From: Planctomycetota bacterium
GTDB taxonomy: Bacteria; Planctomycetota; PLA2; JAEUHO01
Reading direction: 5' to 3'
Length of the DNA: 36,728 bases
NCBI GenBank assembly: GCA_027625315.1
Contig: JAQBWE010000003.1
Span: 1-36,728 of the forward strand
The position numbers and the translations under genes are program-made. Each line of letters opens with the position of its first letter. Within the stretch, counting starts at the first letter, position 1. Positions 8,664 through 31,028 of this stretch are shown piece after piece. Below the pieces are notes generated by a model. The model saw nothing but the letters and a program-made list of their open reading frames with translations, searched no databases and was not told the DNA's origin.

Positions 8664-9800
8664 TCAGGGCCTCAGAAGGACCAGGGCCCCAGCTTGGCCC
8701 AGCAGGCCAGCGGAGAGCACGAGGGCACCGGATCCGGGCTCAAGGCTGGCCAGCGCGAGGGCGGCCTCGACGGCGTCGGCCGCCAGGCCGCAATGCCCCA
8801 GCTGGTCCTTGTACGCGCTCCGGCCTACGCCACAGGTCGCGGGCAGCCCATCCAGAGTCCGCTCGAGGTCAGACTGGCCTGCCCCGGGAACGACCACCAC
8901 CGCCAGGTCCTCAGCGACGGCTCCAGCCTCCGCGAGCGCGGCCTCCGCGGCCGAACACAGAGCCAGGGTGGACGGCGCTAGGGAACCGCCCCGCGGCGCA
9001 ACCGTCCGCCCCGCAGAGCCAACCACCACACCGCGGATCAGCGCCCCGCGGGCGAGGGCCTCTGCGCGCCGTTCGAGCACGAATGCCGCGGCACCATCAC
9101 CGGGCGCGAAGGTAAGCCCATGAGCCTGGAGCTCCGCGCGGGCCACTCCCGACGTGGGGCGGGCGGCGCCGAGCACGACCGCGGCGTCAAGTCGCCGCGA
9201 CCGAACGCTACGTACCGCCATGTCGAAACAGGTCCATGTGGGTCCTGCGTAGCCTGCGACGGAGGTGTTCGCACCGCGCAGGCCGTATCCGGTAGCTAGG
9301 AAACTGAACGCATTGTTCTTCAGGCTCTCGAGCATGAAGAACGGCTTGACGTGTCGCGCGGCGGCGCGGTTCAAAACCTGCGCATCGATGTCGGCGTCGA
9401 GATCCTCGGTGGCCGCGCGGAACGCGTTGTGGAACTCAGGGCAACTCCAGTCGTAGCTATCCATCTGGGCTAGGTACAGGCCGCGGCGCGCATCCGGATA
9501 GGGGCTGGCGAGCAAGTTCGACGCTGCCACCGCCTCGGCACAGGCGTCGGCGGCAAGCCGACCCGCGCCGTTGAGGAACTTGATTTGCGGCTCGAGCTCC
9601 TCTGGGACCTTTGAGCGCAAGAGGGGTTCCGCGATGACGGCCGCGCGCGCCATCCCTGACCTAGGCGAGGCGTCGCCCTGCGCCGTAACCGCGCTGCGGC
9701 CCGTCAAGATCGCCGCGTGGCTGCTGGCTAGATCATGGCCAAGCGCCGTCACGCAACCCACGCCGGTGATCACGACGTCGTCGTCTCCGAGCGTTCTCAT
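8664..9800 (-). CDS. Ketosynthase-fold protein lacking the active-site Cys (chain-length-factor-like)
   Basis: A 378-residue thiolase-fold protein with a FabF-like start (DDVVITGVGCVTALG). The nucleophile region reads NTSVAGYAG instead of TTACSA, so Gly (about residue 183) stands where the catalytic Cys should be. The first catalytic His motif (NAHGT) is replaced by VVVPGAG. A remnant of the second (QLGHCGLAADA) remains. It therefore cannot condense by the normal mechanism and may act as a partner subunit for a complete ketosynthase, like chain-length factors of type II PKS and aryl-polyene systems; that role is inferred. The start overlaps the upstream dehydratase stop by ATGA, making it the last gene of the overlapped operon. 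Confidence 0.8.
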   Translation of the reverse strand: MRTLGDDDVVITGVGCVTALGHDLASSHAAILTGRSAVTAQGDASPRSGMARAAVIAEPLLRSKVPEELEPQIKFLNGAGRLAADACAEAVAASNLLASPYPDARRGLYLAQMDSYDWSCPEFHNAFRAATEDLDADIDAQVLNRAAARHVKPFFMLESLKNNAFSFLATGYGLRGANTSVAGYAGPTWTCFDMAVRSVRSRRLDAAVVLGAARPTSGVARAELQAHGLTFAPGDGAAAFVLERRAEALARGALIRGVVVGSAGRTVAPRGGSLAPSTLALCSAAEAALAEAGAVAEDLAVVVVPGAGQSDLERTLDGLPATCGVGRSAYKDQLGHCGLAADAVEAALALASLEPGSGALVLSAGLLGQAGALVLLRP

Positions 9801-10246
9801 GCGCTCGCCCCGCGCAGGACGGCAAAGGCCGCGCGTGCGCGCGCACCGGATTCGAGGCCTTCCAGGGGAATCACGCGCGCTTCAAACTCAATAGCGGCCC
9901 CGCGCTGACCATCCTGGCTGGTTTCGGCGCGGTAGGCGCGTCGCTCTGGGTCGTCGAGCGGCAGGCGCTCGAGGCGAATGTCCACACGATCCCCGGGGAT
10001 GGCGAACTTGTAGTAGCGAGCGCTGCGCACGTGATCGAGCAGCACCCAGTGTGCGAAGTCTGAAGACGCCGCCTCGAGCCAGCCGGCCAGCTGCGCGCAC
10101 GCCTCAAGGATCAACATGCCAGGCAGAATGGGGCGCTCGGGAAAATGCCACTCGAGGTAGTCCTCGCTCATGGCCACAGTCTTGAAGCCCTCGATACTCG
10201 TGTCGGGCGTCAGCGCCACGATGCGGTCAACGAGCAGAAATCTCAC
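9797..10246 (-). CDS. FabZ-like 3-hydroxyacyl-ACP dehydratase (hot-dog fold)
   Basis: A 149-residue single hot-dog protein that would dehydrate 3-hydroxyacyl-ACP to trans-2-enoyl-ACP. The FabZ-type catalytic pair is visible: His34 in EWHFPERP and Glu48 in LPGMLILEACAQLAG. Length and motif spacing are normal for FabZ. It begins with GTG, which overlaps the holo-ACP synthase stop as GTGA, and its own stop overlaps the KS-like gene as ATGA. It shares the opening MRFLL-DR segment with the second dehydratase of the operon, so the two are probably ancient duplicates. Confidence 0.85.
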   Translation of the reverse strand: MRFLLVDRIVALTPDTSIEGFKTVAMSEDYLEWHFPERPILPGMLILEACAQLAGWLEAASSDFAHWVLLDHVRSARYYKFAIPGDRVDIRLERLPLDDPERRAYRAETSQDGQRGAAIEFEARVIPLEGLESGARARAAFAVLRGASA

Positions 10247-10650
10247 GATGCCTCCTTCGTGACCATGATGACCGACGCCAGCGCGTGGTCTCCATCGTGG
10301 GTGAGCGAAACTGTGGAGTCGGCGACTCCTAGCCGCTGGGCGTGCTCCGCGGGCTTGCCGTGCAGGGTTAGATGGGGGGCCGTCCCGCGGCGCACAACTT
10401 CGATGTCTTTCAGCTTGGGATCCACACCAGTAGGGGAGATCCCCAGGCCGAGCGCTTTTAGTGCGGCCTCCTTGGCGGCGAACCGCGCGGCGTAGTGCGG
10501 GACAGGGTTCGGAAGCCGATCGCAGTAAGCACGCTCAGCATCCGTAAACAGGCGCGCGGTGAGCTCGGGCTGGCGCGCGAGCAGGTCCGCGAACTTAGGC
10601 ACGTAGACCAAGTCGATTCCGTGGCGGAGGCGGGTGTGTGTCGTACTCAT
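10243..10650 (-). CDS. acpS: Holo-[acyl-carrier-protein] synthase (4'-phosphopantetheinyl transferase)
   Basis: A 135-residue AcpS-type enzyme that would transfer 4'-phosphopantetheine from CoA to the ACP serine. Family motifs are clear: GIDLV (metal-binding Asp13), RFAAKEAALKALG (Glu61 and Lys) and the late SLTHDGDHALASVI segment. The length is typical of AcpS. It overlaps FabG upstream by ATGA and the dehydratase downstream by GTGA. Placement inside the operon suggests it serves the zinc-ribbon ACP of this cluster, though it could also be the cell's only AcpS. Confidence 0.92.
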   Translation of the reverse strand: MSTTHTRLRHGIDLVYVPKFADLLARQPELTARLFTDAERAYCDRLPNPVPHYAARFAAKEAALKALGLGISPTGVDPKLKDIEVVRRGTAPHLTLHGKPAEHAQRLGVADSTVSLTHDGDHALASVIMVTKEAS

Positions 10651-11402
10651 GCGATCGACAGTCCGCCGTCCACGACCAAGGCTTGGCCTGTGATGTACGC
10701 CGCCGCTTCAGATGCGAGGAAGGCGACGAGGCACGCCACGTCCTCGGGCTGCCCAAACCGTGCCTGGGGGATCTGCGCAAGCACTGTGTCGCCCGCGCGC
10801 CGCTGGATCACCTGGGTCATGTCCGTCTCGATAAAGCCGGGGAGGACGGCGTTCACGCGCACGCCCCGATCCGCGACCTCCAAGGCCGCAGCGCGGGTAA
10901 GTCCGAGCACGCCCGCCTTCGCCGCCGCGTAGTTGGCCTGACCGCGTCCACCGCGTAGGGCCTGGATTGACGCCAGATTCACGATGCTGCCCTTGCGGGC
11001 GCGCATCATGCTCCGGAGTGCCAAGCGCGTCGTGCGCATGAGTCCAGTGAGGTTGACGTCGATCACACGCTGCCAGTCGGCGTCGCGCATCGTGACAAGC
11101 AGCCCGTCCTTCACGACGCCCGCGTTGTTGATCAGAATGTCCAGATCGCCGTGCTGCTTGAGCACACCAGCGAAGAGCGCCTCTGTGCTCTCGGCGTCAC
11201 CGATGTCGCCCTGGACGGCCACCGCGTGACCTCCGGCGTCGAGGATCGACTTCGTTACGGCGTGCGCCTCTGCTTCGGAGGATCGGTAGTTCACGATGAC
11301 GTGCGCACCGCTCGCGCCGAGGCGACGCGCGATGGCCGCGCCGATACCGCGACCCGCACCCGTGACGAGGGCGACCTTGCCGCCTAGATCTACGCGAATC
11401 AT
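10647..11402 (-). CDS. fabG: 3-oxoacyl-ACP reductase, SDR family (FabG-like)
   Basis: A 251-residue classical short-chain dehydrogenase. It carries the NAD(P)-binding TGAGRGIG motif (about 14-21), NNAG, Asn118, Ser145, and the YxxxK pair Tyr158/Lys162 in NYAAAKAG. The C-terminal AAYITGQALVVDGG is typical of FabG. It would reduce 3-oxoacyl-ACP to the 3-hydroxy form between the ketosynthases and dehydratases encoded beside it. ATGA overlaps join it to the KS upstream and acpS downstream. A housekeeping FabG probably exists elsewhere, so the symbol denotes type only. Confidence 0.9.
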   Translation of the reverse strand: MIRVDLGGKVALVTGAGRGIGAAIARRLGASGAHVIVNYRSSEAEAHAVTKSILDAGGHAVAVQGDIGDAESTEALFAGVLKQHGDLDILINNAGVVKDGLLVTMRDADWQRVIDVNLTGLMRTTRLALRSMMRARKGSIVNLASIQALRGGRGQANYAAAKAGVLGLTRAAALEVADRGVRVNAVLPGFIETDMTQVIQRRAGDTVLAQIPQARFGQPEDVACLVAFLASEAAAYITGQALVVDGGLSIA

Positions 11403-12694
11403 GCGTCCTCCTCTGCGGTGTACTTCTTCACCACGATGCAGGCGTTCTGACCGCCGAATGCGAAACTGTTGTTGAGGGCCGCGCGCACGGGCAACGCGCG
11501 ACCGCGGCCCGGGACCAAGTCGACATCGCAGCCCCGGTCGGGATGCTCGAGATTGGCCGTCGGCGGTACGGCATCCTCCTGGACAGCCTTCACACAGCAG
11601 CAGAACGCGACGCCAGCCGCGGCCGAGAGTAGATGCCCGAAGGCGCCCTTGCTGCTCGACACGGCGACGGTCGCGGCGTGCTCACCCAGCACGGCCTTGA
11701 TGGCCGTGATCTCGGCCGGGTCGTTGCGCTTCGTGCCGGTGCCGTGAGCGTTCACGAAGGCGACGTCGGCGGGGGAGACGGCGCCGTCCTCTAGGGCGTA
11801 CCGCATGGCCTCCTCTGCGCCGCGTCCGTCCGGCGGCGGGGCCGTCGTGCGAAAGGCATCCAGAGAGGCGCCGTAGCCCGCGACTTCCGCCAGGATGGTC
11901 GCCCCGCGAGCGCGCGCATGGTCGAGGGACTCCAAGACGACGACACCCGCTCCCTCGCCCATCACGAGGCCGGAACGCCGGCGATCAAACGGCCGGCAGG
12001 CCGAAGCGGGATCGTCATCGTCCACCTGCGCGGAAGCGCCCAGGAGAACGAAGAAGACCATTCCGAGCGGGTTGATCTGTGAATCGGAGCCGCCCGCCAG
12101 CACCCAATCGGTCTCGCCCGATCGCACGCTCCGCCACGCCATACCAAGCGCTTGGTTCGAGGCAGAGCAAGCCGTGGTGACCGCGTGGACGGGACCGCCG
12201 ATGCCGTAACGCGACGCGACGCAGGCGGCGGGCTGCTCCGCGGGCGCCCGCAGGATCGACTCCTGCTCAAGGTCCTTCAGCTGCCCGGCGAAGCGCACGG
12301 CGTCGAAGCGGCCGTCGGCATCCAGACAGCGCGCCACATCCTCAATCCGACTCGCCCCAGGTCCAGCACCGAGCATCACGCCGGCCCGAGGATGGTTCCC
12401 GGCCTCGAGTCCGGCGTGGGCGAGCGCTCGCCTTGAGGCCGCCAGCGCGAAGAGCGTGCGGGGGTCGACGAGGCGGGCCGCGTCGGGGCCCGCGCCCTCC
12501 GCTGCTTCCGCCCGCAGTGCGGCCACGACCTCGGGGGCGATCTCTCCGACGGCGCGGGTGGGCGGCCCATGCGGACCGAGCCGCTGCGGCGCAGCGACGC
12601 CGCGCTCGCCGGCCAACAAACGCTTCCACGCGGCGTCGATGTCACACCCCAAGGGCGTCACAATCCCCAGACCCGTGACCACGACGCGGCGCAT
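11399..12694 (-). CDS. Beta-ketoacyl-ACP synthase, FabF-like, catalytically complete
   Basis: A 431-residue ketosynthase. The track extends it to 12967, but MRRVVVTGLGIVTPLG is the family start, so I use the ATG at 12694, which overlaps the upstream stop as TGATG. The full Cys-His-His set with Lys is present: Cys176 in TTACSASN, His317 in NAHGTGT, Lys349 and His354 in SSKGAFGHLLSAAAG. It would condense acyl groups with malonyl-ACP. It sits between the atypical dehydratase and FabG. With the Cys-less KS-like proteins in the same operon it may form heterodimers, which is an inference. Confidence 0.92.
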   Translation of the reverse strand: MRRVVVTGLGIVTPLGCDIDAAWKRLLAGERGVAAPQRLGPHGPPTRAVGEIAPEVVAALRAEAAEGAGPDAARLVDPRTLFALAASRRALAHAGLEAGNHPRAGVMLGAGPGASRIEDVARCLDADGRFDAVRFAGQLKDLEQESILRAPAEQPAACVASRYGIGGPVHAVTTACSASNQALGMAWRSVRSGETDWVLAGGSDSQINPLGMVFFVLLGASAQVDDDDPASACRPFDRRRSGLVMGEGAGVVVLESLDHARARGATILAEVAGYGASLDAFRTTAPPPDGRGAEEAMRYALEDGAVSPADVAFVNAHGTGTKRNDPAEITAIKAVLGEHAATVAVSSSKGAFGHLLSAAAGVAFCCCVKAVQEDAVPPTANLEHPDRGCDVDLVPGRGRALPVRAALNNSFAFGGQNACIVVKKYTAEEDA

Positions 12695-13131
12695 CACGGC
12701 GTGCCGCCGTAGTACCGGAAGCGCTCGCGCATGACGTCGGGCTCTGGCGCGGGCACATGGGCGTACAGGATCCGCCCCGCGCTCGCCACGCGCACGCCGT
12801 CTACCTCGCAGTACGCACTGGCCATGGAGCCCTTCGGATTGGTTCCCCGCAGCTCGCCGACGATCTTCAGGGTTGTCCCCGGAGCCAAGTCCGCGGGCAG
12901 GGCAACATCTTCCAAGACGGAGAGTACGAGCGACACACCGTAGTTGTGACCGGCAATGGCCGTCCACGCGGTGAGCTGCAGCATGCTCTCAAGGACGAGC
13001 GAAGCGGGGTAGAGCGCCCGGCGCGGGAAGTGCTCCTTGAGCGCCTCGTCGGCCAGGGTGATGCACTTCACGCCCTCGATGCGACGCCCGGGCTCGAAGT
13101 GTGTGACGCGGTCGAAGAGCAGGAATCTCAT
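12694..13131 (-). CDS. FabZ-like hot-dog dehydratase with atypical active-site loop
   Basis: A 145-residue hot-dog protein related to the 9797-10246 gene (shared MRFLL-DR start, His34 in KEHFPRRAL, Glu48 in LVLESMLQLTAW). The usual Pro-Gly before the active-site helix is Pro-Ala here (YPASLVLES). The catalytic His and Glu remain, so activity is plausible, perhaps on a different chain length or as a non-catalytic partner. The start overlaps the KS-like gene stop by ATGA, and the stop overlaps the next KS start. Confidence 0.78.
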   Translation of the reverse strand: MRFLLFDRVTHFEPGRRIEGVKCITLADEALKEHFPRRALYPASLVLESMLQLTAWTAIAGHNYGVSLVLSVLEDVALPADLAPGTTLKIVGELRGTNPKGSMASAYCEVDGVRVASAGRILYAHVPAPEPDVMRERFRYYGGTP

Positions 13132-14219
13132 GCGACCTCCACCAGCAAGGCCGCGGTGCCACCGCGCGAGCCACTTGCGAGAATGAGCGCGCAGCCGGGC
13201 TCGGCACGCAGCGCTACCTGCGCAAGTGCGAGATCGATCGCCGGCGCGGCCGTGCCGGCGTGCCCCAGGTGGCGCTTGGTGTGCACGGCGCGCGCGCCCG
13301 CGAGCCCCTGCGCGGCGACCGCGGCAAGCTCCTCGTCGTCATCGGCTCCGTGATGGAAGACGAACCGACACGACGACGCGCTGCGCTGACCCTCCGCGAG
13401 CGCCGCGATCATGGCGCGGCTCATGGCCGCGGCGTCGGGGCCTTGGCCGGAACGCGGGCCGAACGCACTGCCGCCTCCAAGGATGCGCAGCGTGCCGACG
13501 ACATCCGACTCGTGACGGACGAGCGCGCAGGCCCCAGCGCCTTCGGCGGGGGCCACACCTAGCAGTTGGCCCTCCAGCGCGAGTCGAGCCAGGGTGGCGG
13601 GCGTGATGCGACCCGAGGCGCCCCCCGCGAGGGCCGCATCGCAGTCACCCCGCGCCACACTCCGCGCGGCCTCAAGTAGCGCGCGCAGTCCTGCATCCGC
13701 GTCGGCGGACAGTACGAGGTTGTCGCCGCGAATATCGAGATCGATGGCGACCTGGCCGACGGCCACATTGCCGAGCATCGAGAGGGGCCAGAGCGGGTGC
13801 ACGGAACGGTAGCCCCCCGCGAAGAACGCGGAGAGCGAGAAGGCTCCGGTGGCGTCGCGCGAAGCCTGCGCGGCAGCTGCGAGATCGTGGACGGCGGCAT
13901 CGACCATGCCCATACCGACAAACAGCCCGACGCGCTCGCGCGGCACGGTCGCCAAACCGCCTGCGCTGTGCGCGGCGCGGCTGACGGCCTCGAACAAACG
14001 ACCGTGCGGGCCTAGGATGCGCAGCGCCGGGTCGTCCTCCGCATCCTCAGGCTCGTGCCACACCTGCGCCGCGCTGGGCGCTCCGAACCCGGAGGCATCG
14101 AAGCCCTCGATCGGGGCGAGGGCGGTGGCACCCGAGACGACGCGCTGCCAAACTTCGCGGGGATCGTCCCCGAGCGCTGTGCGCAGTGCAGTGGCGGTGA
14201 CGGCAACGTCCAGGGCCAC
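13128..14219 (-). CDS. Ketosynthase-fold protein lacking catalytic Cys (second KS-like partner)
   Basis: A 363-residue protein with a shortened FabF/thiolase fold. Where a KS has TACSA this reads LSADADAG, so Asp (about residue 173) replaces the nucleophilic Cys. The NAHGT segment is replaced by VFHHGADDD, while HLGHAGTAAP keeps the second His region. It is unlikely to condense and probably pairs with a complete KS, as KS-beta subunits do. It starts with GTG at 14219 and lies 99 bases after the complete KS gene. No other gene is visible in that gap. Its stop overlaps the dehydratase by ATGA. Confidence 0.78.
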   Translation of the reverse strand: MALDVAVTATALRTALGDDPREVWQRVVSGATALAPIEGFDASGFGAPSAAQVWHEPEDAEDDPALRILGPHGRLFEAVSRAAHSAGGLATVPRERVGLFVGMGMVDAAVHDLAAAAQASRDATGAFSLSAFFAGGYRSVHPLWPLSMLGNVAVGQVAIDLDIRGDNLVLSADADAGLRALLEAARSVARGDCDAALAGGASGRITPATLARLALEGQLLGVAPAEGAGACALVRHESDVVGTLRILGGGSAFGPRSGQGPDAAAMSRAMIAALAEGQRSASSCRFVFHHGADDDEELAAVAAQGLAGARAVHTKRHLGHAGTAAPAIDLALAQVALRAEPGCALILASGSRGGTAALLVEVA

Positions 14220-14318
14220 GCTAGCCGACTCGCTTCAGGCTGGGGCCGACGTATCGGCTGTGAAGTCCCACAAGGCGTCGGACCGCGGGTTCCTGCCGGC
14301 GCCTCGGAGCCATGGGGG

Positions 14319-15605
14319 CTACTTCCCTCCGGCAAGGGCGCGGGCGGCGGAGCCCAAGCAAACGCACGCGTTCTGGCCGCCGAAGCCGAAGGAGTTGGAG
14401 AGCGCGACATGGTGCTCGCGAGCGCGCGCCGCGTTGGGAACGTAGTCCAAATCGCAGCGCCGATCGGGCGCCTCCTGATTGATCGTCGGCAGCAACATGC
14501 CCGCCTGCATTCCCTTGAGCGTCAAGATGGCTTCAATCGCGCCCGCGGCACCGATGGTGTGGCCGATCATGGACTTGTTCGATGAAATGGGCACCTCGGC
14601 CGCGCGGTCACCGAACACGCGCTTGCACGCCATGGTCTCGGTCGGATCGTTGATGGGGGTGGACGTGCCGTGGGCGTTGACGTACTCGACGTCGGCCGGC
14701 GTCAGCCCGGCGTCGTCAATCGCGGCGCGCATGGCTCGTACGGCGCCGTCGGCCTCCGGGTGCATATCCGTGATGCGGTAGCCGTCGGCCGAGTCACCGT
14801 ACCCAAGGATCTCACCGAGGATCGGGCGTCCGCGAGCGAGCGCATGCTCGCGCGTCTCAAGCACGAGGATCCCGGCTCCTTCCCCGATCACGAAGCCGTT
14901 GCGACGGCGATCAAATGGCCGCGAGGCCTGCTCGGGCGAGGGATAGCGGCGCGAGAGGGCTCCGAGAATGGCGAAGCCGAGGTAGTAGGAGAACGACAGA
15001 AGCGGCTCTCCGCCGCCGGCGATGACGACATCGGCGCGACCCTCGCGCAGCAAGCGCAAACCCTCGCCCATTGCTTGCGAGCCCGCCGCGCACGCCGAGA
15101 CGATCGGAAACACAGGGCCCTGTGCGTCCAACAGATGAGCGAGCAGAGTCGGCGCGGTCTCGGGTGAGCGCGTGGTGAACTCGGAGGCGTCAAAGCGCGG
15201 ATCCGCACGGAGCGCGTCGACGTTCACTTGCCCATCTTCGCGCGCGTGGCGAGTCATGAGTTGAATCACGTCGCGATCCGGCACGCGCCCGTGGCCGCCA
15301 ATGGCGACGGCGATACGCTCGCGATCGGTGACCTCGTCCAATGCGGCCGTTCGCAAGGCCTCAGCCGCTGCGTGGCGGAGCAGGCGCAACTCCGTACCCC
15401 CGACCGCGTCAGAGGGATGCGCGGGAATCAGCCGGTCGACATCGATCTGAGCGCCGATGTCACAGGGCAGCCCTGTTGCGTCGAACCGCGTGAGGTGACG
15501 GACGCCCGAGCGTCCAGCCCGCATCGCCTCGAACGTCTCGTCGACGCTCGCTCCGAGGGCTGTGATCATCCCCCAACCGGTTACGACGACGCGGCGATCA
15601 GGCAT
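14319..15605 (-). CDS. Beta-ketoacyl-ACP synthase, FabF-like, catalytically complete
   Basis: A 428-residue ketosynthase. The ATG at 15605 is preferred over the TTG at 15611 in the track, giving the family start MPDRRVVVTGWGMITALG. Catalytic residues are all present: Cys172 (VSACAAGSQA), His312 (NAHGTSTP), Lys344 and His349 (NKSMIGHTIGAAG). It overlaps the zinc-ribbon ACP stop by eight bases. Gene order ACP, complete KS, Cys-less KS suggests a KS-alpha/KS-beta/ACP minimal set like that of type II polyketide and aryl-polyene synthases; this is an inference from order and motifs. Confidence 0.92.
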   Translation of the reverse strand: MPDRRVVVTGWGMITALGASVDETFEAMRAGRSGVRHLTRFDATGLPCDIGAQIDVDRLIPAHPSDAVGGTELRLLRHAAAEALRTAALDEVTDRERIAVAIGGHGRVPDRDVIQLMTRHAREDGQVNVDALRADPRFDASEFTTRSPETAPTLLAHLLDAQGPVFPIVSACAAGSQAMGEGLRLLREGRADVVIAGGGEPLLSFSYYLGFAILGALSRRYPSPEQASRPFDRRRNGFVIGEGAGILVLETREHALARGRPILGEILGYGDSADGYRITDMHPEADGAVRAMRAAIDDAGLTPADVEYVNAHGTSTPINDPTETMACKRVFGDRAAEVPISSNKSMIGHTIGAAGAIEAILTLKGMQAGMLLPTINQEAPDRRCDLDYVPNAARAREHHVALSNSFGFGGQNACVCLGSAARALAGGK

Positions 15606-16167
15606 TGGCAAAGAGCTGCTTCTCGCGCTGCATATCGTGGATCCAGCGCTTGGTCAGCTCGTCGCCGTCGGGGTACTCCGCGTCCTTGCCACACCCCCCG
15701 CAGGCGACCTTGGTGCTGTCGTCGCTCTTCCACGAGGCGGCGCTGCACGCCGGACAGGCGTCGGGAAGATGGGCGATGATCTTCTCGACGGCGGTCGCGA
15801 TGGAACCTGGCGTGACGACGGCCGGCACCTCATCGGCGTATATGCCGGCCTTGATGCTCTCAGCCTCCGGGAACTGCTCGCGCAGCAGAGCGGCGGCGCC
15901 GGCGGTGATCTTGTTGTCACGGTCGATGGCGGTGCCCTCGCCGAGTTCCTCCTCAACGTGATCCAGCAGGAGCTGGCTTGCGAGGCGGATGCCGAAGACC
16001 TGCTCGAGCCGGAAATTGATGTCGAGGAAGTCGATCGAGGTGGCGCCCAGGTCGTTGATGATCGACTGCTCCATGCCGATGCCGTTCGCATCGATCCGCA
16101 GCGTCGTCGCCAGGGCAGCGCGGACCTCCTGGTCGATACGCTCGCGCGTCACAAGGGAATTGGCCAT
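15598..16167 (-). CDS. Acyl carrier protein with C-terminal zinc ribbon
   Basis: A 189-residue protein. Residues 1-80 are an ACP domain with the phosphopantetheine site in NDLGATSIDFLDINF (Ser44; the usual DSL is replaced by ATS). A linker of about 50 residues follows, then a four-Cys zinc-ribbon-like module (CPAC at 138-141, CGGC at 156-159) and a short charged tail. Stand-alone ACPs are usually 75-90 residues, so this is more than twice the norm. The ribbon might dock partner enzymes of the operon; this is a guess. GGAGG lies about ten bases before the ATG. It is the first gene of the overlapping run after a 134-base gap. Confidence 0.85.
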   Translation of the reverse strand: MANSLVTRERIDQEVRAALATTLRIDANGIGMEQSIINDLGATSIDFLDINFRLEQVFGIRLASQLLLDHVEEELGEGTAIDRDNKITAGAAALLREQFPEAESIKAGIYADEVPAVVTPGSIATAVEKIIAHLPDACPACSAASWKSDDSTKVACGGCGKDAEYPDGDELTKRWIHDMQREKQLFANA

Positions 16168-16196
16168 CTCGTGTTCGCCTCCGGTTTGTAGGGTTC

Positions 16197-16225
16197 GGTG
16201 TACCCCGTTGTGCGCCCATTCGCAA
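16197..16225 (-). promoter_or_regulatory. Weak sigma-70-like promoter candidate before the ACP operon
   Basis: On the minus strand TTGCGA and TACACC are 17 bases apart, about 30 bases before the ACP start. Only half of the -10 matches consensus. It lies in the 134-base gap between the SDR and ACP genes, where an internal promoter would make sense. Nothing else stands out in that gap. Confidence 0.22.
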
Positions 16226-16301
16226 AATCGGGGTCGGGGGATTCTCCCCGCTGGCCGGGTCGCGGCTGCACCCGCGTACGCACGGCCACGGGATCACAGG
16301 C

Positions 16302-17066
16302 TCACGGGGATCGCAGGATCCTGTTGGAGAGACCGCGGTCGACGATGAGCGTCTGCCCCCCGATGGCGCGCGCTTCGTCCGAGCACAGGAAGGCGGTCAC
16401 GTCGGCGACCTCCTCCGGCGTGACGTAGGCCTCTTCTGGCAGCGCGGCCAGCTCGGGCCACAGTCGCCGCAGGGTCTTGTAGCTGTCGGTCTTGACGAGG
16501 CCGGCGCAGACCGCGTTGGCCTCGATTCCCTGAGGCCGCAGCTCTTCAGACCACTGGCGCACCATGGCCTCCATCGCGGCCTTGATGGGTCCGAGCGGGT
16601 ACTGCGCGTTCATGTAGCGCGAGCCGAGGCTGGAGATGAACACGATGCGGCCCCCGCCGCGTTCAAGCAGGGGCAGGGCCTTCTGCACACAGAACAAATG
16701 GCCCAGCAAGTTGGTATCGACCAGGAGTCGCAGATCGCGCTCTAGCAGCCGCGTGGTGTCCTTGAACGGCGCCCGAGCCGCGTTCAGGATCAAGAAATCA
16801 AGGCCTCCGAGACCGGCCTCGATCTGCTCAACGGCCGCCGCGACCTCGTCCTTGCGGGCGATGTCGGCCGCGACGCAGACGGCACGCCGACCGAGTCCTC
16901 GGATCTCATCGGCGAGTTCCTCGGCCAAGCGCCGCGACGGTCCGTCGGCCGAACGACCGTGCAGGGCTAGGTCGGCCCCGTCGCGAGCGAGGCGCAGGGC
17001 GATGGCCCGACCGATGCCGCGCGTGCTACCCGTGACCCAGGCGATCTTCCCGTCGAAGCGTTGCAT
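16302..17066 (-). CDS. SDR-family enoyl-ACP-reductase-like protein (FabL-like)
   Basis: A 254-residue SDR; the ATG at 17066 gives the family start MQRFDGKIAWVTGSTRGIG, and the longer ORF upstream is not conserved-looking. NNAG is replaced by LNAAR. The active-site stretch SSLGSRYMNAQYPLGPIKAA has a Tyr-Lys spacing wider than the classical YxxxK. This resembles FabL/FabI enoyl reductases rather than ketoreductases (compare the SSLGS-Y-K region of Bacillus FabL). The end (GGQTLIVDRGLS) is also FabL-like. It would saturate the enoyl-ACP made by the operon's dehydratases. It precedes the ACP by 134 bases on the same strand and is divergent from the putative methyltransferase. A different SDR role is possible. 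Confidence 0.75.
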   Translation of the reverse strand: MQRFDGKIAWVTGSTRGIGRAIALRLARDGADLALHGRSADGPSRRLAEELADEIRGLGRRAVCVAADIARKDEVAAAVEQIEAGLGGLDFLILNAARAPFKDTTRLLERDLRLLVDTNLLGHLFCVQKALPLLERGGGRIVFISSLGSRYMNAQYPLGPIKAAMEAMVRQWSEELRPQGIEANAVCAGLVKTDSYKTLRRLWPELAALPEEAYVTPEEVADVTAFLCSDEARAIGGQTLIVDRGLSNRILRSP

Positions 17067-26252: not shown

Positions 26253-27917
26253 CTAGCGGATCACGCCGTAGGTCGTGAGGGTGCCGAGCGACGCGCTGCC
26301 GGAGCCGAAGTAGAAGTTGGCGGCATCCAGGGTGCCGCTGACCTGGACGAACATGTCCGGACGACCTAGGGCGTTGGGGAACAGGACCACGTTGCCCAGG
26401 GTCCGCCCCGGGACTGCCGCAAACTGCGTGGAGCCCGCCGCGAAGTTGGGCGTAAAGAGCGAGCCTGTGACGAGGTTGCTAGGCAAGCCGAGCAAGTACA
26501 GCTGACCTGGGATCGCCGGGCTCTGGAACAAGTCCCCGAACCCGGTTACGGCCAGCGTGCGTCCATCGGGTGAGAGGGCCACACCCGTAAGGTTGCCTCC
26601 CGGACCACCAGACTGCGCCGCGGCGACGCCGATGCCGTTCAGCGGTCCGCGCAGCACGCCCAACTTCGTGGCGTCGATCGGATCGCTCTGGAGCCCGTCC
26701 AGCCGCAGCAGGTAGATCTCGCCAGTGACGCTCGACGGATAGAACCCGACGAGGTGATTGACGCCATCCCGGCCGATCGCCGGACGGATGCCAGCGAGGC
26801 CGCCGAGCCCGAGGTCGAAACGTCCGAGGTAGGCGCCGTCTGCGGCGCCGTACACCTCGACGTTGCTGACGGTGACCGGCACGAGGTTGAAATTCGAGTC
26901 GTAGCCGGTCGTGCCGGCGCAGGTCACGAGTACGCGATCGCGTGGCAAGCCGCCGGGGACGACCGGCGGCACCGGCAGGACGTGCAGGGCCACGGGGTTG
27001 TAGGCTCGGGTCTGCAGAACCAGCGGGCTGCCCAGGCCACCTCCCGCGAAGCTCATCGGCAACGCGCTGCCGAGTGCAACGTCGAGTACCTGCACCGTCC
27101 CGGGCAGCTTGGTCGCGCCATAGGACGGCGCGCCAAACACGAGATTGCTCATGGCGATGAACAACCGACCGAAGCCCGACGTGGTGTGCGAGAAGGCGAG
27201 GCCCTCTGCGCCGGACTGCATGAACTGGCCACCAAGCACGGGCACGCCGAGAGAGTCAAAGAGCGGCTGCGTGCCGAGATAGGTCGTGGCGAGATTGAGC
27301 ACCTGGAGAATGGCGCCGGTGGTGGGGTCAAACGCCACGACGTTCGAGAGAGTCGGCGCGGTGTCTGAGCCGCCCGCGTTCACGACGGCGAAGCCCAGTC
27401 GGGCCGTCACGATGTGAATGTCGTTGACGAAGAAGCCGAACCCCACGGGGGCGTTCGCGTCGCCGGGCTGGCCGGCGCTGTCGCGGAGGTCACTCGCACG
27501 AATCGTGACCGTGGAGTAGATCACTGAGGGGGTCGGAGCCGCACCGGAGACATCGAACGGGAGAATCCGGGCGCCGATCCCCTCGACCGCGTCAGCGTCC
27601 GTGGCGAAGAGCGTGTCGCCAAAACGCACGAGGTCACTCGGGAAGGACCCGAAGAGCGCCGTGCGCCCGTAGACCACGGCATCCGGTCTCCACACCGGGG
27701 CCACAGGCGCGGTGGGGGGCGGCGTGGTGGTGCCGCCGCCGCCGGACGGCGGAGTGGGCAGTGGGAAGGTTTCGTCGAAGGGCGCGGACTCGGGGGCTGA
27801 GCCGCCGCAGGCGCCAAGGAAGCACGCGACCAGGGCGAGCATGAGGGCGGCGGGCCACGCAGGGCGCCACGACCGCACGACGCCGCGCAGGGGCGCGGCG
27901 GGCAGAAGCTTGAACAT
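26253..27917 (-). CDS. Propeller-like surface lipoprotein under a cobalamin riboswitch
   Basis: A 554-residue lipoprotein. The ATG at 27917 has GGAGAG seven bases upstream and gives a signal peptide ending in lipobox LGAC (Cys37). A Gly/Pro/Thr linker of about 35 residues follows, then a repetitive beta-rich domain with blade-like segments (VVAFDPTTGAILQVLNL, VEVYGAADGAYLGRFDL, GVALSPDGRTLAVTG), consistent with a beta-propeller. No catalytic motif is visible. Its leader carries a clear cobalamin riboswitch, so its level should fall when B12 is plentiful. Bacteroides BtuG is likewise a surface beta-propeller lipoprotein that captures B12. A similar role here is inferred from context and fold, not from sequence identity. 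Gram-negative outer-membrane location is likely. Confidence 0.8.
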   Translation of the reverse strand: MFKLLPAAPLRGVVRSWRPAWPAALMLALVACFLGACGGSAPESAPFDETFPLPTPPSGGGGTTTPPPTAPVAPVWRPDAVVYGRTALFGSFPSDLVRFGDTLFATDADAVEGIGARILPFDVSGAAPTPSVIYSTVTIRASDLRDSAGQPGDANAPVGFGFFVNDIHIVTARLGFAVVNAGGSDTAPTLSNVVAFDPTTGAILQVLNLATTYLGTQPLFDSLGVPVLGGQFMQSGAEGLAFSHTTSGFGRLFIAMSNLVFGAPSYGATKLPGTVQVLDVALGSALPMSFAGGGLGSPLVLQTRAYNPVALHVLPVPPVVPGGLPRDRVLVTCAGTTGYDSNFNLVPVTVSNVEVYGAADGAYLGRFDLGLGGLAGIRPAIGRDGVNHLVGFYPSSVTGEIYLLRLDGLQSDPIDATKLGVLRGPLNGIGVAAAQSGGPGGNLTGVALSPDGRTLAVTGFGDLFQSPAIPGQLYLLGLPSNLVTGSLFTPNFAAGSTQFAAVPGRTLGNVVLFPNALGRPDMFVQVSGTLDAANFYFGSGSASLGTLTTYGVIR

Positions 27918-27925
27918 CAGGGGTC

Positions 27926-27941
27926 TCTCCACCGGCGGAGA
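27926..27941 (-). promoter_or_regulatory. Hairpin sequestering the ribosome-binding site (expression platform)
   Basis: In mRNA sense UCUCC-GCCGGU-GGAGA forms a 5-bp stem whose 3' arm is the GGAGAG Shine-Dalgarno of the lipoprotein gene. Blocking that site would stop translation, fitting the riboswitch upstream. Whether ligand binding favours this hairpin cannot be told from sequence alone. Confidence 0.5.
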
Positions 27942-27970
27942 CGCGTTGCGACCAGGGCTCGCACGCCGCG

Positions 27971-28012
27971 CCACTCGATCCGGAGTGGTTGCGGATCTCC
28001 CACGGGAGATCC
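27971..28012 (-). promoter_or_regulatory. Two hairpins between riboswitch aptamer and start codon
   Basis: A perfect 9-bp inverted repeat (GGATCTCCC-GT-GGGAGATCC, 28012-27993) is followed by a 6-bp one (CCACTC-CGGATC-GAGTGG, 27988-27971). They lie just past the aptamer in the leader. The first contains both ATCTCC and GGGAGA and could compete with the hairpin at the ribosome-binding site. No U-tract follows, so translational rather than transcriptional control is favoured. Confidence 0.5.
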
Positions 28013-28023
28013 AAGCCGCGACC

Positions 28024-28236
28024 CCGGAGCCGGTCTTCTGGCTTCCGGATCAACCTCCCGTCGCGCCTTCCCACATCCCGCACCCGTCAGGGTTTGGTAC
28101 GCAGTGGCATGGCTCGCAGCGCATGAGCGCGCAGCGGCACGGTGCGACGATTGTCCCCGGTCACAGCGGCGGTCCCGCGGGGGTTTCTCACCCCTCTTCC
28201 TTCCGTTGCCGCCGCGCACAAGCGCGACGGATCCGG
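28024..28236 (-). promoter_or_regulatory. Cobalamin (B12) riboswitch
   Basis: Read on the minus strand the 213-nt leader carries the conserved cobalamin aptamer blocks in order. They are GGTGAGAAACC, then CCGCCGCTGTGACCGGGG (family CCGCCACTGTGA), then GCCACTG, GTGGGAAGGCGCGACGG, GATCCGGAAGCC and the B12-box AAGCCAGAAGACCGGC. These match the corresponding parts of E. coli btuB (CACTG, GGTGGGAAG, AAGCCCGAAGACCTGCC). CCGGA at the 5' end and TCCGG at the 3' end can pair as P1. It ends 106 nt before the lipoprotein start. The track ORFs over it are shadows. It is expected to repress the gene when cobalamin binds. Confidence 0.9.
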
Positions 28237-28283
28237 ACGTGACTCCCGGGTCGTGTGGTGGGGATAAAGAGCAAACCAAAGCG

Positions 28284-28359
28284 TGGTGGAGCTGAGGGGA
28301 GTCGAACCCCTTACCTCCTGAATGCCATTCAGGCGCTCTACCAGGTGAGCTACAGCCCC
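28284..28359 (-). tRNA. tRNA-Ala (anticodon GGC)
   Basis: A 76-nt cloverleaf reads on the minus strand from GGGGCTGTAGCTC to CAGCTCCACCA. The acceptor stem GGGGCTG/CAGCTCC has one G-U pair. The anticodon stem CCTGA/TCAGG holds the loop ATGGCAT, so the anticodon is GGC. The T arm GGGG-TTCGACT-CCCC is intact and CCA is encoded. The 3' end lies only 47 nt before the cobalamin aptamer on the same strand, so the two may share a transcript. Confidence 0.97.
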
Positions 28360-29531: not shown

Positions 29532-31028
29532 CTACGGGGCTGGCGGGAACGAGCCGTAGTTGGCGCCGACGACCAGCGGCACGACGGCGATCGGCACGCC
29601 CTGAATCCCCGGCGTGCCGAGATCAAGATCCAGCTGCGCGAAGTTGCCACCGTTGTCGTACGCCCAGGTCGTCATCATCGGGCCAGAGGCCGTAGCGAGG
29701 AACACGAGCATCCGATCGCCAACGGCGAGAAACGAGATGCCATACACATCCGTGGCGCCCTGCGCGATGCCGCCGATGTCGTCAGAGACGGCCACGGCAG
29801 TCGTACTCGTGAAGCCGTCACTGCGCGCCCGTCGCTGCAGGGCGTCGAGGCCCGCGAAGCCGGTCAGGGCGTGCAGCACGATGGCTCCGTCCGGAGCGCG
29901 TACGAGGGCCGCCGTGCTACCCACGACCGTGCCCACCGACGTCGCGGCGGGACCGTTGCCTTGGGCGATCGCCGCGTCGGTGTTGCCCGGATCGGCGACG
30001 ACGGAGATGTTGTTGGCCACGGTCGTCGGGCCGCCACCGGCCGGGAGCGGAATGCCCTGCACACCGGCGGTCAGCGCATCGTGGTCAATTTCTACAAACG
30101 TGCGCGGATCGAGCGCAGCCAGCATGCCAGTGGCGCCATCCGCAGCGCTCACGACCAGCTGCGGCGGGATGCGCTGCTCGCCAATGCCGAGCCCTGTGGG
30201 CATCGTGGCCGCATCAGCTGGCACGGACTCCAACTCCAGCACGGCCGTCTCGGTCGCAGTCACGGTATCGATGGAGTAAACGCGCACGCGGCCGGAGGCG
30301 TCATCGCGGTAGGCCACATAGACCGCGCCACCCAGCGGATCCACGCTGATCGTCGAGCTTGTCGCTAGCAGGTCGCCGCCGGACGTGGTCAGGGCGATGG
30401 GCGTCATCACCCCGTCGCCAGGCTCGAAGTAAGCGAGGGCCTCACCCGTCCCGCCGCCGTCCTCCAATTGCACCCAGATGCGCCGGACACCATCGACAGT
30501 CGTGGCGAGGACGCCCACGGGCCGACGAGCGGCCGGGGTCGGCACGGTCTGGACGGCGAGCCCCGTCGTGGTCCTCAGGAGCGACACCGTTGCGAGCCCG
30601 GCCACGGGTAGGGGTGGCTCCCTCCCAGTGTTGAAGCCGGTGATGTACTTCCCTGAGGCGTAGTGTCGATCCTGGTTGATCGCCAGCCCCTGGATCACCG
30701 TGATGCTCATCTCCGCATTCTCAGGGAAGGCCGTGCGGGCCACGGGGAACACGTAGATGTTGTTCGCCTCATCCGGATGCTGGAGCACCGTCACCGCGAT
30801 GAAGCCGCCGTTGACGGTGACCAGTACGTCGTTCGGGTTCAGGACCGTCACGGGCTCGTTGTAGGTGACGCGTATGAACGGCAGGGGACCGTCGGTCGTC
30901 TCCCATGTCGTCGGCCAGGTCGAAACCACGAACGGTCGATTCTGATCGCTGAGGCCGCAGCCGGCGGTAAGTCCCGCGAGGAACAGAGCGGCGAGAGCAG
31001 CGAGCACGCGGGGGGGAAGAAGGCACAT
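29532..31028 (-). CDS. Lipoprotein with Ig-like N-terminal domain and beta-rich repeats
   Basis: A 498-residue exported protein with a signal peptide ending in a lipobox-like LTAGC (Cys24). Residues of about 33-130 look like a bacterial Ig-like domain (PLPFIRVTYNEPVTVLNPNDVLVTVNGG). The remainder is a series of strand-rich segments (VYVAYRDDASGRVRVYSI, GIGEQRIPPQLVVSAADG) suggestive of a propeller. No enzyme motif is visible. It resembles the riboswitch-controlled lipoprotein in style but has no riboswitch in the 132-base gap upstream, which it shares with the divergent aminotransferase. Probably anchored in the outer membrane; function unknown. Confidence 0.72.
   Translation of the reverse strand: MCLLPPRVLAALAALFLAGLTAGCGLSDQNRPFVVSTWPTTWETTDGPLPFIRVTYNEPVTVLNPNDVLVTVNGGFIAVTVLQHPDEANNIYVFPVARTAFPENAEMSITVIQGLAINQDRHYASGKYITGFNTGREPPLPVAGLATVSLLRTTTGLAVQTVPTPAARRPVGVLATTVDGVRRIWVQLEDGGGTGEALAYFEPGDGVMTPIALTTSGGDLLATSSTISVDPLGGAVYVAYRDDASGRVRVYSIDTVTATETAVLELESVPADAATMPTGLGIGEQRIPPQLVVSAADGATGMLAALDPRTFVEIDHDALTAGVQGIPLPAGGGPTTVANNISVVADPGNTDAAIAQGNGPAATSVGTVVGSTAALVRAPDGAIVLHALTGFAGLDALQRRARSDGFTSTTAVAVSDDIGGIAQGATDVYGISFLAVGDRMLVFLATASGPMMTTWAYDNGGNFAQLDLDLGTPGIQGVPIAVVPLVVGANYGSFPPAP

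Follow-up and report, generated by a model that had tools for sequence, protein, structure and literature searches.

BtuG (BT1954/BtuG2; PDB 3DSM, 8PTF) is a surface B12 lipoprotein of Bacteroidota with a beta-propeller body, which in BtuG2 has seven blades. The btuG gene always adjoins btuB (PMC10404256), and its homologues were found only in Bacteroidetes (PMC6143338). Proteins of the DUF4465 family (BtuJ; Pan of the planctomycete Mucisphaera) are exported B12 binders, the planctomycete member included (PMC13398666). They also occur at planctomycete riboswitch loci, but they are beta-jelly-rolls unrelated to the propeller described below. The YncE/YVTN propellers (PF21783, TIGR02276) have riboswitch-led members in other planctomycetes. 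BtuB-like receptors of other Planctomycetota stand right behind the riboswitch as well, but these are TonB-dependent barrels. A literature search, which left most subscription journals and preprints outside its coverage, returned no paper on BtuG or a cobalamin riboswitch in Planctomycetes, or on a cobalamin riboswitch with a beta-propeller.

Here we analysed a 36,728-nt stretch of a planctomycete genome (hereafter the window), in which a cobalamin riboswitch precedes a lipoprotein gene. Like BtuG, the encoded protein is a lipoprotein with a propeller body as predicted by modelling; B12-riboswitch control and a host that appears to need imported B12 and carries a BtuFCD-type importer are also common to both systems.

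Cobalamin riboswitch and leader hairpins

The aptamer proposed in the original prediction was confirmed by cmscan against Rfam, which matched RF00174 at 28033-28200 (minus strand); the score of 50.2 bits (E 8e-10) is well above the gathering score of 31.5 bits. The match covers model positions 47-167, and the P1 arms fall outside the matched segment. These arms, GACCCGGGAG (28252-28243) and CTCCGGGGTC (28029-28020), could be read directly from the sequence and form 9 of 10 pairs. The aptamer therefore extends over approximately 28020-28252 on the minus strand. It was the only cobalamin riboswitch detected in the source genome, a 3.2 Mb assembly estimated to be 92% complete. A tRNA-Ala(GGC) gene (28284-28359, minus strand) precedes the riboswitch by about 30 nt and is context outside the system; the same tRNA gene stands beside the riboswitch on the same strand in genomes G004-G007 and on the opposite strand in G008 and G009.

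A P13-type regulatory hairpin (CCACTC-CGGATC-GAGTGG; 27971-27988, minus strand) is located 3' of the aptamer, at the site expected for P13. Across 10 relatives, 96.7% of its cells were paired and compensatory changes were seen at four of the six pairs, a level that 0 of 500 shuffles reached. Sequence reading and folding gave a second, short hairpin (TCTCC-gccggt-GGAGA; 27926-27941, minus strand) over the Shine-Dalgarno sequence GGAGAGA, the GGAG of which (27930-27927) lies inside this small stem, separate from P13. This second hairpin had been proposed to act as a simple translational switch. It does overlap the GGAG. With a folding energy of -7.3 kcal/mol, however, it is weak, and its stability does not exceed that of shuffles (z 0.38); a simple switch is unsupported. 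Among the leader hairpins P13 is thus the better supported, and the ribosome-binding-site hairpin is unremarkable. As judged from the leader sequence, translational control by the window riboswitch is plausible. At the locus of a distant homologue (G048), a G+C-rich hairpin with a subsequent T run stands behind the aptamer and looks by eye like a terminator; hence the output mechanism may differ among lineages.

Lipoprotein sequence and predicted fold

The lipoprotein gene (26253-27917, minus strand; ATG at 27917, stop at 26253) encodes 554 aa, as delineated by open reading frame, alignment and structure model. A signal peptide with lipobox Cys37 is followed by a Gly/Pro linker (approximately residues 38-70) and the propeller region (approximately residues 75-554). 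The lipobox LGAC occupies residues 34-37, and its Cys is kept in the homologues that have a complete N-terminus. The residues following Cys37, GGSAPESAPFDE, were examined for a Bacteroidetes-type lipoprotein export signal; we know of no defined planctomycete equivalent of that signal.

AlphaFold2 with a 14-homologue alignment gave an all-beta model (pLDDT 85.2, pTM 0.90), and Foldseek matches of this model in the PDB were mostly propellers. No Pfam or NCBIfam family, and no enzyme family, matched the protein above cut-off, and no catalytic or heme motif was seen in the window family. The body of the lipoprotein is a predicted beta-propeller, and the description of a propeller-like lipoprotein lacking an enzyme motif holds. 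The family matched none of the YncE/YVTN models and gave a sub-threshold match to PD40 only, whereas the model of a distant homologue from family f2, of lower confidence (pLDDT 68), had E. coli YncE as its top PDB match. Matches of the lipoprotein to WD40/WRAP design sequences in the PDB span one repeat only and were discarded as uninformative.

Comparison with BtuG

The BtuG2-cyanocobalamin structure (8ptf) ranked 24th for the window model in the Foldseek search of the PDB (E 1.6e-5, TM 0.50 by target). Generic WD40 and integrin propellers matched about equally or better, and in fold the model resembles BtuG2 no more closely than it does generic seven-bladed propellers. The propeller region comprises about 480 residues in the window protein and about 330 in BtuG, and the two proteins come from different phyla. 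No BtuG chain was present among the phmmer and profile matches of the window family to PDB chains. Whereas btuG adjoins btuB, the window-family gene does not: a look for btuB near the homologues had been suggested, but neither btuB nor another TonB receptor gene was found close to the lipoprotein gene, either in the window or in those relatives that were read. Because sequence homology and btuB adjacency were both tested and neither was found, the window lipoprotein is not to be filed as a member of the BtuG family. The part of the idea of BtuG-like capture that is supported is a riboswitch-linked propeller lipoprotein outside Bacteroidota; the specific analogy with BtuG would be one of function.

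Conservation of the riboswitch-lipoprotein pair

A single-protein query against genome contigs found no homologue. When a family profile was used instead, 13 relatives were found, and a profile of 16 members placed the family in 18 of 294 phylum genomes, with one copy each. The riboswitch lies directly upstream of the family gene in 16 of these 18 genomes, in planctomycete families f1, f2, f34 and f40, in agreement with the expectation that relatives keep it in the same position; identity to the window protein drops to about 28% among the riboswitch-paired homologues. The other two genomes are not assessable for pairing because contig ends cut the upstream region: in G001 the riboswitch and the gene are on different contigs, both near contig ends, and in G017 the homologue begins at a contig end. 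Riboswitch and homologue are both missing from two draft genomes, G010 (f1) and G015 (f2). A fifth family is represented by G033 (f19), whose riboswitch-led lipoprotein was paired with the likewise riboswitch-led homologue of G058 in a two-sequence profile; this profile matched the window family (hhalign 99.6%, E 4e-24).

B12 economy of the host and candidate transport partners

The corrin-ring gene CbiC was not found in the source genome and was absent in 24 of 25 genomes tested, while seven control genomes were positive in the same search. De novo corrin synthesis is hence unlikely in the source organism. Its genome does encode B12-binding-domain proteins of MetH size and a PduO adenosyltransferase. 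The single FecCD permease, together with an adjoining Peripla_BP_2 protein and an ABC ATPase (contig C209), is by sequence the sole BtuF-BtuC-BtuD-type importer of the source genome. Judging from this gene content, the source organism probably must import corrinoids. With CbiC not found, B12-binding proteins present and a single importer, it is thus the lipoprotein gene that stands first behind the only riboswitch detected in a probable corrinoid importer. A parallel is E. coli, in which btuB is the uptake gene that bears the riboswitch. No btuFCD genes adjoin the window-family gene.

One TonB-dependent receptor was found in the source genome (contig C256). A single TonB receptor lineage is common to the f1, f2 and f34 genomes; it is separate from the receptors that stand under riboswitch control in other planctomycetes and scores nearer to heme/siderophore receptor models. 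In the f2 genomes G012 and G014 (L083, L084) the sole TonB receptor found lies beside pst/pho phosphate genes, and G010 has the receptor of this lineage while lipoprotein and riboswitch are absent. The separate lineage, the phosphate neighbours and the lone occurrence in G010 led us to treat the receptor as a candidate rather than a proven partner.

Genes behind cobalamin riboswitches elsewhere in the phylum

One strong riboswitch per family was surveyed in 37 further families, which together with f1, f2 and f34 gave 40 families. The surveyed loci were top-scoring matches and hence a biased sample, and most genes were assigned by eye; in this sample a propeller was the first or second gene in 17 of the 40 families (read by eye, partly with profiles), a TonB receptor came first in 10, btuF or another btuFCD gene came early in four, a DUF4465 protein was encoded in three and other genes followed in six. 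Profiles support 13 of the 17 propeller families, either through the window family or through YVTN/YncE models or alignments, and the remaining four (f66, f20, f52, f23) were called from sequence appearance alone. The loci of these four (L140, L144, L151, L154) show a separate unnamed propeller-looking family behind the riboswitch. DUF4465 proteins were seen at L145, L146 and L156, two of them with PEP-CTERM, and an unnamed exported family adjoins. At L122, L123, L124, L146 and L149 the first gene is type IV pilin-like (GFTLIELLVVIAI), with cobalamin genes following in some.

Genome G017 carries an operon (L185, contig C46, from 15725 down to 2 on the minus strand) in which the riboswitch is followed by a propeller lipoprotein of YVTN/YncE type, then by btuF, btuC and btuD, and then by corrin-synthesis genes with cobO last. 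As a background control, the propeller profiles were compared with 396 ORFs at other loci in the same genomes; they matched only this riboswitch-led propeller and one kinase-like ORF. A BtuG identity for the G017 propeller was rejected: the match (E 1e-4) was not specific, and an archaeal YVTN propeller and others scored better. Another propeller-like fragment lies upstream of the riboswitch at L185 and runs to the contig end. In G048, the divergent neighbour of the riboswitch-lipoprotein pair encodes an MsrA-CobO/BtuR fusion (L036:11762-12904). At the level of gene arrangement, B12-linked propeller lipoproteins outside Bacteroidota are thus supported by a riboswitch linkage that is conserved in several families, together with the propeller-btuFCD operon of G017.

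Proposed function and alternative explanations

A B12-capture role of the window lipoprotein is probable because the only riboswitch detected controls it and because the pairing recurs in distant planctomycetes. We propose, with a probability of roughly two in three for the whole uptake scheme, that it is an envelope-anchored corrinoid-capture protein acting like BtuG. Cobalamin riboswitches of this class switch expression on when cellular B12 is low, and the window riboswitch would likewise permit expression of the lipoprotein under such a condition. The protein would be lipidated at Cys37, and its flexible linker would tether it, probably to the outer membrane, where it may be displayed on the surface. 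The propeller would then capture cobalamin or a relative and may pass it to a TonB-dependent receptor, perhaps that of C256, from which the BtuFCD-type importer of C209 would bring the corrinoid into the cytoplasm, where MetH and further cobamide enzymes would use it. If this is true, propeller-based B12 scavenging would be a wider and perhaps convergent strategy; BtuG-type surface capture has so far been regarded as restricted to Bacteroidetes (PMC6143338). The analysis also offers a so far unnamed gene family a working function, and provides a short list of proteins for direct corrinoid-binding assay.

A wider scenario, which we hold tentatively and at somewhat less than even odds, is that Planctomycetota, independently of Bacteroidota, put several propeller families, the window family included, in the place of btuB under an often single riboswitch, where they would serve as envelope corrinoid-capture proteins; the window family would cooperate with a TonB receptor of another lineage than the known BtuB.

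The strongest competing explanation is that the lipoprotein is a B12-repressed envelope protein which does not bind B12 and fulfils a function needed in B12 shortage, e.g. as a B12-independent substitute or envelope factor. B12-independent isoenzymes are known under cobalamin riboswitches, the riboswitch-downstream genes of G078 and G213 resemble ribonucleotide reductases, and the corrinoid role of the propeller is read from context rather than from a binding site. However, several propeller families recur in the slot held elsewhere by btuB, btuF or DUF4465, and the G017 operon joins a propeller to btuFCD. Propellers in an uptake-gene slot and this operon therefore indicate acquisition, and we consider a protein that does not bind B12 unlikely. 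Clearly less likely again is an enzyme or chaperone acting on corrinoids or cobalt, in remodelling or cobalt loading, comparable to NirF with heme d1. Propeller proteins do handle tetrapyrroles in other systems, and the G017 propeller matches cytochrome d1 and NirF, but the window family shows no catalytic or heme motif, the genome lacks CbiC, and a lipoprotein export signal is present.

The genes beyond the lipoprotein vary among relatives. In most f1 relatives lipoprotein, nfeD, nfeD and floA are closely spaced on one strand; in several relatives this NfeD protease-flotillin operon follows the lipoprotein gene by about 30-80 nt, and shared control is possible. It is nevertheless very improbable that the operon is the true riboswitch target and the lipoprotein a passenger, since the window has a convergent lolD instead of nfeD behind the lipoprotein, the pair is kept with different downstream genes in the f2 genomes, G048 and G058, and no genome with riboswitch and nfeD but lacking the lipoprotein was seen.

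Beside the corrinoid-capture lipoprotein proposed here, the window encodes another lipoprotein that has no Pfam family (29532-31028), and similar lipoproteins occur at the equivalent place in relatives. Further away, ketosynthase, dehydratase, AcpS, FabG, acyl-carrier-like and SDR genes (8664-17066) form what appears by eye to be an aryl-polyene-like cluster.
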